Position numbers and translations under genes: made by a program. A stretch of DNA of 26,687 bases from an uncultured Flavobacteriales bacterium (GTDB lineage: Bacteria > Bacteroidota > Bacteroidia > Flavobacteriales > Crocinitomicaceae), in NCBI GenBank assembly GCA_946479985.1, contig CAMLIF010000048.1, positions 1 to 26,687 of the forward strand. The letters run 5' to 3'. The first letter of the stretch is position 1; each line of letters opens with the position of its first letter. Under the pieces are notes generated by a model. That model did no database searches and had not been told where the DNA came from. It saw only the letters and a list, made by a program, of their open reading frames with translations. Positions 6,385 through 12,793 of the stretch are shown one piece after another.

Positions 6385-6831
6385 TTATTCTATCGGTTCA
6401 GCGGTTTCTACAGTATGCTGCATTTTAACTTCAACTATTGCTTTAGCAAACTCACACCCTGCCTGCGAGTCGAGTAATGTAATAAATCGCATATTGAGAT
6501 CATCCTGTTCAGTTAAACCATAGATCTGGTGATATTTCTTAGTCAATTTGCTATTAAACCTGTTCATTTCTGTTTCCATTTCCTGTATTTCCGTGACGTC
6601 TTTCGTAAATTGTTCAGGATTCTGCGAAATCAGATCAGTCAAAATCTCAACCAGAGGCGTACCTGTTTCACCTGAAAAAATGATGGCGGCCTTGGTTTCT
6701 TCGGAAATACCTTTGGAGAATTTATTTACTCCTTTACAGTATTCGGCCGTTAAGTTTTCCCAATCGGAATCGGTCTGTGCATTTAATGAAATTGGAAATA
6801 GTAAAAGCAAAAGCGGTATCAAAACTTTCAT
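6385..6831 (-). CDS. Small exported protein, four-Cys family paralogue lacking two cysteines
   Basis: A 148-residue protein with signal peptide MKVLIPLLLLLFPISLNAQ. The ATG at 6831 is chosen because the upstream frame adds only unrelated residues before this clear leader. It shares with the next two genes the pattern YCKGVNKFSKGISEETKAAII, a helical middle, and QAGCEFAKAI. It retains Cys32 and Cys126, but the second Cys of the CxC is Gly34 and the mid-protein Cys is replaced (about Phe92). It lies 10 bp after its paralogue and is probably in the same transcript. I do not recognise the family. A soluble, mostly helical periplasmic or secreted protein is likely. Confidence 0.8.
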   Translation of the reverse strand: MKVLIPLLLLLFPISLNAQTDSDWENLTAEYCKGVNKFSKGISEETKAAIIFSGETGTPLVEILTDLISQNPEQFTKDVTEIQEMETEMNRFNSKLTKKYHQIYGLTEQDDLNMRFITLLDSQAGCEFAKAIVEVKMQHTVETAEPIE

Positions 6832-6841
6832 GTGAAATGAT

Positions 6842-7297
6842 TTACTCGTCGTAATAATAGTAATCATCTTCGTCATCTCCCTGCTGCCCCAAAATCATCA
6901 GTGCCCAGGTAAACTCACAGCCTTTCGCCCCGCTTAGGGCTTCCAGCAATTTAGTTGTTGCTTCATCTGCACTGTCAGTATTTTCAAATACTTCGGGGAA
7001 CTTCTTTTCAATCTTCTCAGTACACTTACCGATATCTTCACCAATTTTCTGAAGCAGTTCTGCATCTTTCATTAATTGATCGGCATCTTTCTCTGCAAGT
7101 TCCGTAAATAAAACTTCCAAATCTGTTCCGTCAGTTGCTGATTTAATAATGGCGTTGCGGGTATCGCTGGAAATCCCTTTTGCTTCTCCGTTTACACAGC
7201 TGCATAATTCTTTGGCAATTTTGGGATACAGGTCCTGGGCAAATAACTTGCTGTTTAATAATCCTGTAAAAAGGATAAGTATTATAACTGGTTTCAT
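6842..7297 (-). CDS. Small exported four-cysteine protein of unknown function
   Basis: A 151-residue protein with signal peptide MKPVIILILFTGLLNSKLFA. The mature part begins with LYPKIAKELCSCVNGEAKGIS (Cys32, Cys34), continues with a charged helical segment holding Cys92 (IGKCTEK), and has Cys127 in AKGCEFTWALM. It ends in an unusual acidic, tyrosine-rich tail (DDEDDYYYYDE). Four cysteines in an exported protein suggest two disulfides. It is followed at 10 bp by a paralogue and preceded by an intrinsic terminator at 7324-7349, so it must either have its own promoter in the short space between or rely on readthrough. The function is not recognised. Confidence 0.82.
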   Translation of the reverse strand: MKPVIILILFTGLLNSKLFAQDLYPKIAKELCSCVNGEAKGISSDTRNAIIKSATDGTDLEVLFTELAEKDADQLMKDAELLQKIGEDIGKCTEKIEKKFPEVFENTDSADEATTKLLEALSGAKGCEFTWALMILGQQGDDEDDYYYYDE

Positions 7298-7318
7298 AAA
7301 ATCGGGTTTATCTGGTAT

Positions 7319-7349
7319 AAAAAAACCGCTAACCTTTCAATTAGCGGTT
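7319..7349 (-). terminator. Intrinsic terminator after the lipoprotein gene
   Basis: The arms AACCGCTAA (7324-7332) and TTAGCGGTT (7341-7349) pair perfectly over 9 bp around an 8-base loop. On the minus strand they are followed by a run of seven T (plus-strand A at 7319-7325, overlapping the stem base). It sits 20 bp after the stop of the gene at 7370-7801 and just before the start of the next paralogue at 7297, so it partly separates the two. Confidence 0.85.
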
Positions 7350-7369
7350 CTGCAATATAATAAAGGAAA

Positions 7370-7801
7370 TTACATTCCGGCTTTCTGACTGATCTTAATC
7401 AAAGCATGTGTCAATTCACATCCTTTTGCAATTTTCAATTCAGCAGTGATCTTTTTCTGAATCTCAGCTTCCGTATCATCTGTGTAAATGTCTTCATACT
7501 TTTTTTGCAAGCTTGAAATACACGTTTCTACTTCCGTTCCGATTTTTTCCAATGCCTGCTGATCTTTCAATCCTTGCTCCACATCTTTCATGATCTGGTC
7601 GCCCATCAATTTCTCACTGTCAGCACCATCTTCACTTGCAGCAATCAATGTCTCACGCATTCCGTCAGAGAGCCCTGCCGAATGTTTATTGACACAATCA
7701 CACATATCTTTTGCTAAACTCTTGTAATCGTCATCGTTAGCCATATTACAAGAACCTAGTGCTAAGGTCATTACAAAAAGTGGTAGAATAAACTTCTTCA
7801 T
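7370..7801 (-). CDS. Four-cysteine family lipoprotein of unknown function
   Basis: A 143-residue paralogue of the two genes that follow. The ATG at 7801 gives the leader MKKFILPLFVMTLALGSC, whose LGSC is a plausible lipobox with acylated Cys18. The frame is open upstream to 7876, but a 25-residue extension before this leader is implausible. The mature part is ASN/ASP-rich at first (NMANDDDYKSLAKD), then carries CDC (Cys34, Cys36), Cys94 (VETCISS) and Cys128 (AKGCELTHALIKI), the same four positions as its neighbour. It differs from the others in being membrane-anchored. A TATCTTTA box lies 16 bp upstream and a strong terminator downstream, so it may be its own transcript. The function is unknown. 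Confidence 0.82.
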   Translation of the reverse strand: MKKFILPLFVMTLALGSCNMANDDDYKSLAKDMCDCVNKHSAGLSDGMRETLIAASEDGADSEKLMGDQIMKDVEQGLKDQQALEKIGTEVETCISSLQKKYEDIYTDDTEAEIQKKITAELKIAKGCELTHALIKISQKAGM

Positions 7802-7892: not shown

Positions 7893-8861
7893 TTAGTTTA
7901 CTAAACGCGGAAATTCGCTTCCACCCCATTCCAGGATATGATTTGCCGAACGATCAAATTTCTTTAAGTTACTCAGGTTGGTTTTCGGATCGGCCGATTC
8001 TGTTTCTCTGAAAACCACATACATTCTGAGAACTTTAAACGCAGGATCTGAAACACTTAACTCGCCGATTAATTGAGAAACATTATCAGTTAGAACACAA
8101 ACCTCAACATATTCGCTTTGTGCCATTCTGGGCCCCCAGTAAGTAATGAGATCTGTTTTTTCAGTGGCTGTCAATCCTAATTTCAAACAAACTTCTTCCA
8201 GGTATTGAATGGTTTCGGAACCTTTGATGGTGGAGCTTTCCGACCAATTTACACGCATAGATTCTGCCGTTTGATTTGCTTCCCAGAACAAATAAGGATA
8301 AGTGATTCCGGCAATTTCAAATCCTCCGGATTCTTTTACTTTTCCAGACCAGATTCCTTTCGTATTCGGATATGTAAATGTAAAATCACCAACAGGCTTA
8401 ACAGAAATCTCAAGCGGAGTATCCATTGGTGCATAGCAGTAAATAACCGGTTTTTCAGTCATAATGACCCGGTTATTCTCAACCGAGGTAAAGGTCAGCT
8501 GGTAACTGCTTTTGTGCTTCGATTCAATCACCAACGGTCCGGAGTAAATCTCCTCATGATATTCATTCAGGTAAAACTGGAAATCATACGTTCCCGGTTC
8601 AACCTTTAATTCGAAGGAGTTATTGACCAGGCTGACGGTTTTCCAAACTCCGTTCAACGAAAGTCTTATTTCCTGGCGATTTGGCTTATTGAAATCTATC
8701 TGAACGGGGTTTCCGACGTTGAAATGAAAAACAGCTTCTGCTACGCTTAATTTCTCATCTACATTATCACTTAACAAATAGATATTCGGAATCATTTCTT
8801 TTCCAAAACTCACTTGAGTTCCTGATACCAAAACCAGCAAGGCTAACATTATTTTTCTCAT
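7893..8861 (-). CDS. Exported KPVIY/YPYLFWE-family protein, array copy 5 (last)
   Basis: A 322-residue protein with signal peptide MRKIMLALLVLVSGTQVSFG. The N-terminal half carries SLNGVWKTVSLVNNSF, VEPGTYDFQFYLNEYHEEIYSG and a closing strand. The pattern resembles carboxypeptidase-regulatory/PEGA-like beta-sandwich domains. The C-terminal half begins KPVIYCYAPMDTPLEISVKP and continues GDFTFTYPNTKGIW, TYPYLFWEAN, KTDLITYWGPRMA and LEWGGSEFPRL. It is the most divergent copy with the outermost one: the Cys pair seen in the three middle copies is missing here. I recall this C-terminal pattern from uncharacterised bacterial proteins but know no function. It ends the five-gene run, with no obvious terminator directly after it. 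Confidence 0.85.
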   Translation of the reverse strand: MRKIMLALLVLVSGTQVSFGKEMIPNIYLLSDNVDEKLSVAEAVFHFNVGNPVQIDFNKPNRQEIRLSLNGVWKTVSLVNNSFELKVEPGTYDFQFYLNEYHEEIYSGPLVIESKHKSSYQLTFTSVENNRVIMTEKPVIYCYAPMDTPLEISVKPVGDFTFTYPNTKGIWSGKVKESGGFEIAGITYPYLFWEANQTAESMRVNWSESSTIKGSETIQYLEEVCLKLGLTATEKTDLITYWGPRMAQSEYVEVCVLTDNVSQLIGELSVSDPAFKVLRMYVVFRETESADPKTNLSNLKKFDRSANHILEWGGSEFPRLVN

Positions 8862-8865
8862 GATC

Positions 8866-9849
8866 TTATTTTATTGACCCAACGTTTTGTAATTGAAAAC
8901 TGAATCCGCCCCATTCTAAAATGTACCACTCGCTTTTTGGAATGGGTGAGAACGAAACATCTTCCAGGTAGTTTTCAAACTGAGAATCCCATTGTGAAAT
9001 CTGGATATAAACTCTTCGTGTGAAATCTGGTGCCGGAGAGCAGGTCATCTCTGCAAATTTGTCACAATTATAGTCCACTGTAAATTGTACGAACGACGTT
9101 TCATTTTCTGCTAATTGTGGCCCCCAATAGGTTATGAAATCTGTTTGTTCGCGTTGATTCAAGCCTAATTCGGTTAGCTTTTTCTGAAGAAAAGAAACTA
9201 CAGCCGACTTCTCTACTTTGTAACCGTTTCCTTCGGAATGAAATGCGTATTGCTGATTGCTTTCCCAAAACAGGTAAGGATAATTCGTTCCTTCAATTGC
9301 AATTTCACCATTCGTTTTTGCAATTCCTTTCCAGGATTCGTTCATTTCCGGATAAACGAAAGTGAAGCTTCCTACCGGCTTTACCGATAGGTCAAAAGTT
9401 CGTTCTTCATTGGTATGAAAGTAAATCACGGGTTTATCTACAGTAATTTGTTCAGGATAATAAGAATTCCTGTAAAAAATCAATCGAACGGTTGTTTCGT
9501 GCTGCTTACGGATTTCCACTTCCCGGCTCGTAATTTCAGAGAACATTTCATTCACATAAAATTGGAATTTGTACTTTCCCGGCTCAACTGTAAAGTTGAA
9601 TCCACCATATTCATCCGGTGTGATTTCCTTCCAAACACCATTAACAGAAGCCTGCATGATGATGGGAAAAGGTGGGTTTTGAAATTCTTCATTAAAGATC
9701 TGGAACGAAAATTTCGCTTCATTCGGTGTCAGGTTCTTATTCACTGAATCGGAAGTCACATGGAACGGCATGGCGATTATTCTTTGATCATACTCCGCAA
9801 AACCGGAAAGGGAGATCAGAAGGAATGAAATAATAGAAAGTAATTTCAT
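8866..9849 (-). CDS. Exported KPVIY/YPYLFWE-family protein, array copy 4
   Basis: A 327-residue paralogue with signal peptide MKLLSIISFLLISLSGFA. The ATG at 9849 is chosen because the open frame further upstream only reads through the conserved 3' end of the preceding gene. The N-terminal beta-sandwich-like half has ASVNGVWKEITPDEYGGF and VEPGKYKFQFYVNEMFSEI. The C-terminal half has KPVIYFHTNEERTFDLSVKP, FTFVYPEMNESWKG, NYPYLFWESNQQYAFHSEG, QTDFITYWGPQLAENE and ILEWGGFSF. Two cysteines (NCDKFAEMTC) could form a disulfide. It starts 5 bp after copy 3 ends and is followed 4 bp later by copy 5, so it is internal to one operon. The function is unknown. Confidence 0.86.
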   Translation of the reverse strand: MKLLSIISFLLISLSGFAEYDQRIIAMPFHVTSDSVNKNLTPNEAKFSFQIFNEEFQNPPFPIIMQASVNGVWKEITPDEYGGFNFTVEPGKYKFQFYVNEMFSEITSREVEIRKQHETTVRLIFYRNSYYPEQITVDKPVIYFHTNEERTFDLSVKPVGSFTFVYPEMNESWKGIAKTNGEIAIEGTNYPYLFWESNQQYAFHSEGNGYKVEKSAVVSFLQKKLTELGLNQREQTDFITYWGPQLAENETSFVQFTVDYNCDKFAEMTCSPAPDFTRRVYIQISQWDSQFENYLEDVSFSPIPKSEWYILEWGGFSFQLQNVGSIK

Positions 9850-9854
9850 AAGAA

Positions 9855-10835
9855 TCAATTTTGAGTAAGTTGTTCCGGTTTCGTAAATGAAAATCCGCCC
9901 CATTCAAGCAGCGACCAGTTTTCATTTAGAATGGAAGAAAAAGTAATATCATTCAGAAATAATTCGAAATACGGATCCCATTTGGCTATCTGAATAAAAA
10001 CCCTGTGAACAGATTCGGGCTGTGGAGAACAACTAAGGGTTGCAAACTGATCACAATTTTCATCTACAGAAAACTGGACAAAAGAACTTTCATTTGCTGC
10101 CAATTTCGGACCCCAGTAGGTAATAAAATCAGTTTGTTCCTTTTGATTCAAGCCAAATTCCGTCAGTTTTTTCTCTAAAAAGGAAATTGCAGCTGCCTTT
10201 TCTACTTTGTAACCATTTCCTTCTGAATGAAAAAAGTATTGCTGACTACTTTCCCAGAATAAATATGGATAATCGACGCCGTTAATATTCAAATCACCGT
10301 TCGGATAAGCTATGCCTTTCCACGAATCGTTCATTTCCGGATAAACAAATGTAAAATTGCCTGCGGGGTTCACCGACAAATTAAATTCTTGCTTACTAGC
10401 AGTATGGAAATAAATAACTGGTTTACACGGAACAACACGGAGAGGTTCTTCTTTCTTAAAAGGTATTGAAACACTGGTTTCATGCTGACTGAGAATAGTT
10501 AAACTCTGAAAAGTTGTTGCATAAAGAAAACTGTTGGTACTCAACTGAAAGCCTAAACTATAAGTTCCCGGCTCAATCACAAGACTAAATCGCCCGTGTT
10601 CATCCGTTCTAATATAATCCCAGCTTCCGTTTACACTTGTAAGTACAACATTTGGAAGACGTACATTTTCAAAATTACTCGTATCCAGAATGAAACTGAA
10701 TTTGGACTCACTAGTTGATAAGTTTGGGTTTAATGAATCATTCTCAATCCGGAAAGCAAGCGAATCAAGATGCGTTGATTGGGCAGTACCAAAGAAAGCC
10801 GACAATAGAAACGAAATAAGAAAAAGCGCTTTCAT
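9855..10835 (-). CDS. Exported KPVIY/YPYLFWE-family protein, array copy 3
   Basis: A 326-residue paralogue with signal peptide MKALFLISFLLSAFFGTAQ. Its C-terminal half is very close to copy 2, with shared runs such as SPQPESVHRV and AKWDPYFELFLNDITFSS and the same ending WGGFSFTKPEQLTQ. Its N-terminal half (TSVNGSWDYIRTDEHGRF, IEPGTYSLGFQLSTNSFLY) has diverged much more, and the usual FYxNxxYxEI pattern is lost. The cysteine pair NCDQFATLSC is retained. The start at 10835 lies 2 bp after the copy 2 stop. The uneven similarity suggests recent duplication or gene conversion of the 3' halves. The function is unknown. Confidence 0.86.
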   Translation of the reverse strand: MKALFLISFLLSAFFGTAQSTHLDSLAFRIENDSLNPNLSTSESKFSFILDTSNFENVRLPNVVLTSVNGSWDYIRTDEHGRFSLVIEPGTYSLGFQLSTNSFLYATTFQSLTILSQHETSVSIPFKKEEPLRVVPCKPVIYFHTASKQEFNLSVNPAGNFTFVYPEMNDSWKGIAYPNGDLNINGVDYPYLFWESSQQYFFHSEGNGYKVEKAAAISFLEKKLTEFGLNQKEQTDFITYWGPKLAANESSFVQFSVDENCDQFATLSCSPQPESVHRVFIQIAKWDPYFELFLNDITFSSILNENWSLLEWGGFSFTKPEQLTQN

Positions 10836-10837
10836 GC

Positions 10838-11809
10838 TTAACGTTGTGTTAGTTGTTCCGGTTTCGTGAATGAAAATCCGCCCCATTCAAGCAGCGACCA
10901 ACTTTCATTTACAGCTGAAGAAAAAGTAATGTCATTCAGAAATAATTCAAAATACGGATCCCATTTGGCGATCTGAATGTAAACCCGGTGAACCGATTCC
11001 GGCTGAGGAGAACAAGTGAGTTCGGCAAACTGATTACAGCTTTCATCAACAGAGAACTGGACGAAAGAACTTTCATTTTGCGTTAGTTTCGGACCCCAGA
11101 AAGTAATAAAATCGGTTTGTTCTTTTTGGTTTAATCCTAGTTCAGTCAGTTTTTTCTGCAGGAAGGAAACTACATCGGCTTTTTCAATCTTGTAACCGTT
11201 TCCTTCGGAATGAAATTGGTATTGCTGATTGCTTTCCCAGAATAAATACGGGTACTTGTTTCCATCAATGCTTAAATCTCCATTCGGGTAAGCAGTGCCT
11301 TTCCATGAATTGTTCATTGGAGGATAAACGAAGGTGAAATTCCCGGCTGGATTTACTGAAAGATCAAATGTGCGTTCTGCTTCCGTATGCACATAGATAA
11401 CCGGTTTAAAAACCATAATTGACTGTGCCTGCATAAACTGAAGACCAATAGTCATTTCATGCTGTGGAGCAATTGACAAACTACTCCATTGGATTTCGGA
11501 ATATTGGTCGTTAAAATAAAACTGAAAGGAATACGTGCCTGGCTCTACAATACTGCTGAAACTTCCGGTTTGATCAAGGGTTCTTTCACGCCAAACACCG
11601 TTCACAGAAGTTCGGATTACTAAAGTGGACGAATCAATATTTAATTGTGCGTTTTCAATACGGAATACAAATCTGCACTGATTAGAAGGTAAAGTAGAAT
11701 TTACACTGTCGCTCAAAACAGTAAAATCTCTTGCCATCCATCTGCCATTTTCCTTCGAAAAGGTAAAAGGTGCTAACAAAAGGAATAAGAAAAGTGCGCT
11801 GAATTTCAT
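10838..11809 (-). CDS. Exported KPVIY/YPYLFWE-family protein, array copy 2
   Basis: A 323-residue paralogue and a good reference for the architecture: signal peptide 1-18 (MKFSALFLFLLLAPFTFS), beta-sandwich-like domain about 30-125 (TSVNGVWRERTLDQTGSF, VEPGTYSFQFYFNDQYSEI), then the second domain from KPVIY at 135. This holds FTFVYPPMNNSWKG at 158, YPYLFWE at 186, SEGNGYKIEK at 201, TDFITFWGP at 232, the Cys pair CNQFAELTC at 258-266, and LEWGGFSF at 307. I use the ATG at 11809; a TTG two codons earlier is less likely. It is separated by 6 bp from copy 1 and by 2 bp from copy 3. No catalytic motif is evident. Confidence 0.86.
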   Translation of the reverse strand: MKFSALFLFLLLAPFTFSKENGRWMARDFTVLSDSVNSTLPSNQCRFVFRIENAQLNIDSSTLVIRTSVNGVWRERTLDQTGSFSSIVEPGTYSFQFYFNDQYSEIQWSSLSIAPQHEMTIGLQFMQAQSIMVFKPVIYVHTEAERTFDLSVNPAGNFTFVYPPMNNSWKGTAYPNGDLSIDGNKYPYLFWESNQQYQFHSEGNGYKIEKADVVSFLQKKLTELGLNQKEQTDFITFWGPKLTQNESSFVQFSVDESCNQFAELTCSPQPESVHRVYIQIAKWDPYFELFLNDITFSSAVNESWSLLEWGGFSFTKPEQLTQR

Positions 11810-11815
11810 AATCAA

Positions 11816-12793
11816 TTAGTTTGTGTAAGCTGTTTCGGGTAATGTAAAGGCTACTCCGCCCCATTCAAAAACAGTAAATCCTTCTTCTGATGGAAATGAG
11901 AATGTTTTGTCGTTTAAATACGGTTTCATCACATCACTCCAGGGAGTAAATTCAATATAAACACGCTTAATACTTGCCGGAGCTGGTGAAATGGTAAGTT
12001 CCGCATATTGATTACACGTTTCATTCACATTGAACTGAACAAAAACTGCTTCGGAAGCACTTAAACGCGGTCCCCAAAAGGTAATGAAATCGGTTTTTTC
12101 CTGCTGGTTGAAACCAAATTCCGCACATTTCTTTTCCAGGAACGGAATAATGTTATTTCGTGCTACTTTAAAACCATTATCAGCAGGTTTGAAACTGAAT
12201 TCTCTGTTCGATTCCCAAAACAAATACGGATAAGTAATTCCATTTGAGGAGAATGTCCCGTCTTCATTTACTGTTCCGTTCCAGCCATTCTTTATTTCCG
12301 GGTATGTAAATGTAAACTCACCAACCGGCTCAACATCAACAGAAACATTCAAGGCCTTATCCGTATGAAAGTAAATAACGGGTTTCATTACTTCTTCCTG
12401 CTGATAAGAAGGCTGAATACGAACATGAGCCGTACTTGTAGTTTGACTTTTAAATTCAATGGAATCTGTTATGATTTCCTGATAACCGGGTCCGCCCCAA
12501 ATTTTGAAAACGTATTTTCCCGGATTCAGATCATAAAGAACCGGGGCACCTGTTAAAACCAGGTTTTCCAAAACACCGTTTATGCTCATGTAAACCCGTC
12601 GGCCTACAACCATGGTATCACCAAAATTAAAATTCAAAATAACCTGGCATTGCTGTGGAATAAGCTGGGGATTTGTCTTTGTTTCTGCTATATAGAAATC
12701 AGGAGATGATTTACGCGATTCAATATTGCCACTATGAGCGTATGTTGTGCTCAGAGAAAAAAAGAGCAGAAGTCGGGATAAATTCTTTAGCAT
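11816..12793 (-). CDS. Exported KPVIY/YPYLFWE-family protein, array copy 1 (first)
   Basis: A 325-residue protein with a signal peptide (MLKNLSRLLLFFSLSTTYAHS), the first gene of the five-gene run. The N-terminal half has MSINGVLENLVLTGAPVL and LNPGKYVFKIWGGPGYQEI, a more divergent version of the SVNGVW...EPGxYxFxFY pattern. The C-terminal half is typical: KPVIYFHTDKALNVSVDV, GEFTFTYPEIKNGWNG, TYPYLFWESNREFSF, KTDFITFWGPRLSASE and VFEWGGVAFTLPE. Only the first of the two C-terminal cysteines is present (ETCNQYAELTI). A perfect 7-bp hairpin lies one base before the ATG. The leader probably carries the operon promoter, but I found no convincing -7 box there. Confidence 0.85.
   Translation of the reverse strand: MLKNLSRLLLFFSLSTTYAHSGNIESRKSSPDFYIAETKTNPQLIPQQCQVILNFNFGDTMVVGRRVYMSINGVLENLVLTGAPVLYDLNPGKYVFKIWGGPGYQEIITDSIEFKSQTTSTAHVRIQPSYQQEEVMKPVIYFHTDKALNVSVDVEPVGEFTFTYPEIKNGWNGTVNEDGTFSSNGITYPYLFWESNREFSFKPADNGFKVARNNIIPFLEKKCAEFGFNQQEKTDFITFWGPRLSASEAVFVQFNVNETCNQYAELTISPAPASIKRVYIEFTPWSDVMKPYLNDKTFSFPSEEGFTVFEWGGVAFTLPETAYTN

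Follow-up and report, generated by a model that had tools for sequence, protein, structure and literature searches.

A tandem array of exported two-domain proteins with an undescribed C-terminal domain in an uncultured Crocinitomicaceae bacterium

The window, that is the whole 26,687-nt stretch of DNA analysed here (contig CAMLIF010000048.1 of assembly GCA_946479985.1, from an uncultured bacterium of the Crocinitomicaceae), carries a tandem array of five paralogous genes, named g1 to g5 in coordinate order, of which g5 is transcribed first (Table 1). Each array protein consists of an export signal, a predicted transthyretin/CnaB-like N-terminal domain (N-domain) and a C-terminal domain (C-domain) of about 185 residues with the motif series KPxIYxY ... 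YPYLFWE ... EWGG; this KPxIYxY-EWGG domain forms the C-terminus, the protein ending shortly after it. Related arrays keep a fixed gene order with position-specific orthologues under purifying selection, and in some pairs of copies the N-halves have diverged far more than the C-halves.

The preliminary description of the window, made from the letters alone, had reported five head-to-tail minus-strand genes of 322-327 codons with gaps of 2-6 bp, and the open reading frame (ORF) coordinates agree: with the start codons of that first reading, the gaps are 4, 5, 2 and 6 bp in coordinate order, and the sole stop codon of each of the five ORFs is the terminal one. Judged by this spacing the genes are probably co-expressed; they would be co-transcribed and their products located outside the inner membrane. 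The alignment of the five from end to end contains 53 invariant columns, including KPVIY, YPYLFWE and EWGG, while a further motif proposed as common to all, TDFITYWGP, occurs in that form in g2 and g3 and is replaced by TDLITYWGP in g1 and by TDFITFWGP in g4 and g5. The family is exported and two-domain, as first described, and a hydrophobic signal can be read at the start of all five proteins; by a simple hydrophobicity rule such a signal is also present in 156 of the 157 two-domain copies of the locus set described below, two of the 157 having a lipobox-like site or the look of a lipoprotein. No type IX C-terminal sorting domain was found in g1-g5 by Pfam or NCBIfam at E<=1.

Table 1. Array genes and adjoining small genes of the window, in order of transcription.
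Feature	Coordinates	Strand	Length	Remarks
g5, array gene 1	11816..12793	-	325 aa	export signal, sandwich N-domain, KPxIYxY-EWGG C-domain
g4, array gene 2	10838..11809	-	323 aa	
g3, array gene 3	9855..10835	-	326 aa	N-domain with sub-threshold CarboxypepD_reg (PF13620) match
g2, array gene 4	8866..9849	-	327 aa	
g1, array gene 5	7893..8861	-	322 aa	most diverged copy
Small four-Cys protein	7370..7801	-		lipobox-like signal (LALGSC, by eye); 91 bp downstream of array
Second small exported protein, four-Cys family	6842..7297	-		
Third small exported protein, four-Cys family	6385..6831	-		more diverged

At E<=1e-3, 213 homologues were found for full-length g4. Few of the 120 listed are named, and these belong mostly to Fluviicola, including Fluviicola taffensis, or Crocinitomicaceae, the others being one Bacteroidetes metagenome-assembled genome (MAG), one MAG labelled Arenicella and one compost metagenome. 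The best 80 of 327 relatives in GTDB species genomes gave 70 loci, 71 with the window; some of these loci come from one genome, and contig ends can cut an array. With fragments counted, 49 of the 71 contain at least two copies (15 with two, 19 with three, eight with four, four with five, one with six and two with seven), and no array in the set has copies on both strands. Because g4 has so many homologues and same-strand copies recur in these 49 loci, the array is not a chance arrangement. Nor do the copies in relatives, as far as they were seen, prove to be mostly pseudogenes, a possibility raised at the outset: among the matches listed an internal stop occurs in five rows, and a few copies are broken or shortened (L020, L021 and L055 have examples).

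The pattern of the C-half had been ascribed to uncharacterised bacterial proteins, and the family is undescribed as far as searched. None of the five proteins reached a family cut-off in Pfam or NCBIfam, and PHROGs and PADLOC gave no match for the four queries used (g4, g1, g5 and the C-domain of g4). A C-domain profile of 29 rows matches 3286 of 4386 candidate proteins; a Pfam label is absent from all 120 of the 3286 matches listed, and no PDB sequence matches the profile up to E 10. DUF5119 was reached by one of the 29 members scanned against Pfam (E 0.0069), which was taken as chance. In the open-licence papers listed by the searches made, the motif strings of the domain were found only as KPVIY, and that once, in PMC5930347, the title of which concerns mannosidases. 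With the full-length model the fold search hit mainly the N-domain, and the C-domain was therefore modelled and searched alone (g4, 10838-11428), giving no confident match to a solved fold; its likeness to the mu-homology domain of AP complexes, which is eukaryotic and cytosolic, is too weak to mean kinship. The viral structure library contains one strong match, to a Terrestrivirus protein (E 2.6e-14, 212 columns), probably through the C-domain, while the other 15 matches at E<=0.001 were set aside for their little coverage (TM 0.16-0.23 on the model). Scanning viral contigs turned up 82 pattern matches and no confirmed relative. The domain is also matched by one phage record and by one plasmid, of Ruminococcus albus, where it lies within a BspA-type protein.

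Conservation of the C-domain extends across phyla. In an alignment of 64 C-domains, 40 from L050-L092 and 24 from five Crocinitomicaceae-type loci, namely L002, L031, L038, L047 and the window, eleven residues are invariant: K3, P4, Y7, P31, W37, E98, W106, R143, W177, G178 and G179, numbered from the start of the domain. Weak or 5'-incomplete matches were left out, as were L053, L055, L070, L072, L088 and L092, which are duplicates or belong to Bacteroidota. The same eleven are invariant in all 59 domains (35 of the 40) that remain when near-duplicates are removed at 90% identity, and position 101 is D or E in all 64. The Arg of RxGFxxxEWGG is present in 60 of the 64; the four exceptions are g2-g5 of the window, and no other domain compared lacks it.

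For the N-domain, the search with the full-length model predicts a transthyretin/CnaB-like sandwich, and CnaB and pilin domains are among the matches; streptococcal pilins also matched over the full length (E ~1e-4 to 1e-3, rmsd 17-20 A), but these matches were discounted as arising by chance between beta-sandwiches strung together. The likeness to transthyretin-like and carboxypeptidase regulatory-like families (PF13620, PF13715) and to CnaB lies in this predicted fold, but the array proteins stay below the Pfam cut-off (for CarboxypepD_reg, PF13620, the best score is 18.6 bits, in g3, against a gathering score of 32.3) and have the sandwich fused to an unrelated, undescribed C-domain.

Elsewhere the C-domain ends 0-5 residues before the stop codon in the ORFs examined, the exception being L089, whose reading frame contains more than one C-domain copy and is truncated by the edge of the locus. 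The homologous proteins of Treponema, Patescibacteria, Clostridia and other Bacteroidota have the same eleven invariant residues where compared but are mostly encoded once per genome and carry other N-terminal parts: in Anaerotignum (L056, L058) these are SLH domains and in L066 an Ig-like domain, and L054, L086 and L090 have, as judged by eye, little more than a lipoprotein or membrane signal. One spirochaete ORF of 1125 residues (L089, L091, L092; G752, C70) has three tandem KPxIYxY-EWGG domains and, by eye, an ankyrin-like start. The domain was found in 17 of 296 genomes sampled from Bacteroidota, the phylum of G004 (one copy in 15 of the 17), in 31 of 192 from Patescibacteria (that of G009), in 4 of 149 from the phylum of Treponema (G007) and in 5 of 249 from that of Anaerotignum (G008). 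Within the family of G004 (Fluviicola chungangensis; Crocinitomicaceae) it occurs in 72 of 240 genomes, 53 of which have at least two copies and 11 at least five, in a range from one to seven; these counts are possibly lower bounds, only 13 candidates having been scored in many genomes. In five of six array-bearing genomes all copies lie on one contig (3, 3, 7, 3 and 7 copies), and in the sixth, G006, five of six do. Since most domain-bearing genomes of the family are multi-copy and the other samples are mostly single-copy, the arrays are in these samples a trait of the Crocinitomicaceae, and the C-domain itself is not. The array is therefore not a system of five as such, given the family range and the mostly single copies in the other phyla sampled.

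Many of the arrays occupy the same syntenic position. Before the array come alaS and a glycosyltransferase gene in the window and in several Fluviicola-type loci, and on its far side many loci have an NtrC-type regulator, a Ppx/GppA-like gene and an ABC exporter, these names being our reading of the sequences. Six arrays of one layout were chosen from the 49 (L002, L005, L008, L010, L013 and L016) and compared position by position; for both domains the best match lay at the same position in 80 of 80 cases, with an N-domain identity of 66.6% at the same position against 20.1% at different ones (67.2% against 40.4% for the C-domain). The record of L002, titled Glaciecola amylolytica (CP034120.1), contains a Fluviicola-type array, and G352, a genome with matches at those coordinates, belongs to the Fluviicola chungangensis family; the record is probably mislabelled. 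On a FastTree phylogeny of 152 proteins from 47 arrays, 47 changes of first/middle/last label are needed, against 74.1 on average, and never fewer than 65, in 300 within-array shuffles; g5 falls nearest the first genes of Fluviicola-type arrays and g1 nearest their second genes. Close orthologues of their own were found among the fetched proteins for g2, g3, g4 and g5 (best N-domain identity 81, 87, 76 and 85%, respectively).

Selection on orthologous N-domains is purifying. Of 24 close pairs taken from different loci, 21 were usable for both halves, and their median dN/dS (NG86) is 0.131 for the N-domain and 0.148 for the C-domain; the N-domain has the higher value in 10 of the 21 and a maximum of 0.685. 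The N-domains are therefore not in an evolutionary race. Between copies the two halves can differ strongly: g3 and g4 are 82% identical in the C-half and 30% in the N-half, their synonymous divergence is 1.21 in the former and saturated in the latter, and their nucleotide identity rises to 88-90% at the 3' end; L045 compared with L038 and L043 is similar (C 82%, N 30-31%). The simplest reading of these sequences is that in such pairs the N-domain was replaced, or the C-domain converted, by recombination. Several observations temper this: over 204 within-array pairs the C-domain is only moderately more alike (mean identity 48.0% vs. 31.7%), a gap of at least 35 points occurs in only one of the 204, and one pair in L035 is reversed (C 58, N 73). 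So do the best matches: among 157 proteins those of both domains lie elsewhere for 105 and in the same array for 24, the rest being 16 C only and 12 N only.

We consider it about an even chance that the array encodes specialised, co-exported envelope proteins, in which the N-domain is partner-specific and the C-domain has a shared ligand. The operon would yield five two-domain proteins that belong to the cell envelope or surface, are exported together and are not interchangeable. The common C-domain would do the same job in every copy, most likely the binding of one shared envelope or extracellular ligand, such as a glycopolymer or a partner protein, and the transthyretin/CnaB-like N-domain would give each copy a partner of its own, so that the set would work as specialised subunits used together. 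Anatomy, order and selection rest on direct evidence; the ligand, the assembly and the joint action of the five we infer. Of the three explanations first offered for the copies (a multi-subunit assembly, a repertoire of binding specificities and dosage selection), dosage is disfavoured and the repertoire weakened, and specialised subunits or partner-specific proteins fit best. Several points weigh against the specialised-subunit reading. The six arrays of the position test are close relatives picked for one layout and do not count as independent; the nearest N-domain to that of g1 is only 47% identical; and within the locus set g2, g3 and g4 have one another as nearest relatives for both domains, so that part of the window array is a lineage-specific expansion. 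Further, with one to seven copies in the family no fixed stoichiometry is conserved, and the C-domain, a single copy in most genomes sampled elsewhere, needs no paralogous partners.

An unlikely reading, if still one to be reckoned with, is that the five proteins build one hetero-oligomer (a fibre, a shell or an outer-membrane-associated complex) in which the C-domains pack together and gene order equals assembly order. The fixed order and position-specific sequences would suit such a structure, as would the tight gene spacing and the CnaB and pilin domains among the fold matches of the N-domain, but the variable copy number in the family and the solitary C-domains of most genomes sampled elsewhere speak against it.

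Whether the C-domain might instead be an unrecognised extracytoplasmic enzyme, with five isoenzymes aimed at different substrates by their N-domains, is bound up with its neighbours outside Bacteroidota, where Memo-like (PF01875) and PGA_cap (PF09587) genes are frequent in Treponema and Patescibacteria. In the best-80 set all eight Treponema loci, which represent one genus, and all five loci titled Patescibacteria or Planctomycetota have a Memo-like gene close to the C-domain gene and on the same strand; it was found in 15 of 31 loci of a less selected Patescibacteria sample and in one of four from Spirochaetota. With ORFs taken from stop to stop, it overlaps the C-domain gene or lies at most 300 bases away in 8 of the 8 Treponema loci, in 3 of the 5 loci titled Patescibacteria or Planctomycetota and in 14 of the 15 from the less selected sample. 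Many of the neighbouring Memo proteins have export or lipoprotein signals by eye, and in some Treponema and Patescibacteria loci (among L050-L069 and L099-L149) Memo is fused to PGA_cap; the Treponema neighbour family, at first taken for an M23 peptidase, proved in Pfam scans to be Memo and PGA_cap. Over the 192 Patescibacteria genomes, Memo is present in 17 of the 31 with the C-domain and in 31 of the 161 without it (Fisher p 1.4e-4, uncorrected for relatedness). No Memo-like neighbour was seen in five Firmicutes loci, five other loci, 16 single- or two-copy Bacteroidota loci and one extra locus of G006, or in 52 Crocinitomicaceae-type loci, nor does the window have one. In two of the 52 PGA_cap occurs, but 3-4 kb off and on the other strand, unlike the close pairs of Treponema and Patescibacteria; the two Crocinitomicaceae-type members of that neighbour cluster (L001, L014) are PGA_cap without Memo. 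Memo itself was found in none of the 240 genomes of the array-bearing family (control genomes were positive in 5 of 14), and the Memo link therefore informs on the C-domain and not on the mechanism of the window.

This link, the C-domains that stand nearly alone in small lipoproteins, and the eleven residues invariant across phyla, which include K, E, R and three W and are joined by a twelfth place held by D or E, would fit catalysis. We nevertheless find an enzyme doubtful: the 64 domains contain no invariant His, Cys or Ser, the C-domain has no confident fold match, four of the five window copies carry another residue in place of the nearly invariant Arg before EWGG, and no Memo was found in the 240 family genomes.

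Distinctly improbable is a recognition repertoire of adhesins, or of phage or predator decoys, under diversifying selection. The dissimilarity of N-domains within arrays and the pairs that resemble N-domain swaps (g3/g4; L045 with L038 and L043) are what it would produce, yet orthologous N-domains evolve about as slowly as C-domains and keep their array position, and the four queries matched no defence family. Dosage selection, by which redundant copies merely raise expression, is scarcely credible: identity among g2, g3 and g4 is 65-82% in the C-halves, but among the five window genes it is 17-42% in the N-halves, each of g2-g5 has an N-half that its own orthologues conserve, and the copies are not interchangeable in the position test.

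Small exported proteins accompany some of the arrays. A small four-Cys family adjoins them on the same strand in seven of the 71 loci, with three tandem copies in the window (6385-7801; Table 1). In 11 loci (L007, L011, L015, L017, L020-L024, L026 and L036) an exported family of about 160 aa is encoded after the array and in its orientation; it is adjacent or at most 164 bases off in ten of them and 2.1 kb off in L021. In ten loci (L025, L027, L032-L035, L040 and L047-L049) an exported protein of about 239 aa, by eye resembling carboxypeptidase-regulatory proteins, is encoded on the same strand directly before the array, at 36-161 bases.

A tentative and broader proposal is that KPxIYxY-EWGG is a new extracytoplasmic module, a ligand-binding or catalytic fold that lacks solved relatives, and that in Spirochaetota and Patescibacteria it works with exported Memo-like enzymes; the Crocinitomicaceae may have freed it from Memo and expanded it to a modular array of specialised envelope proteins, with N-domains swapped onto a constant C-domain. 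The theme, modular exported proteins, is a known one, and what is new is the undescribed, widespread domain at its core. A domain with thousands of members and cross-phylum invariance, for which neither a family model nor a solved structure was found, is an annotation gap; the Memo link seen in other phyla offers a first testable lead to its function, and the arrays amount to a natural experiment, with one domain kept constant and the domain joined to it specialised according to position.

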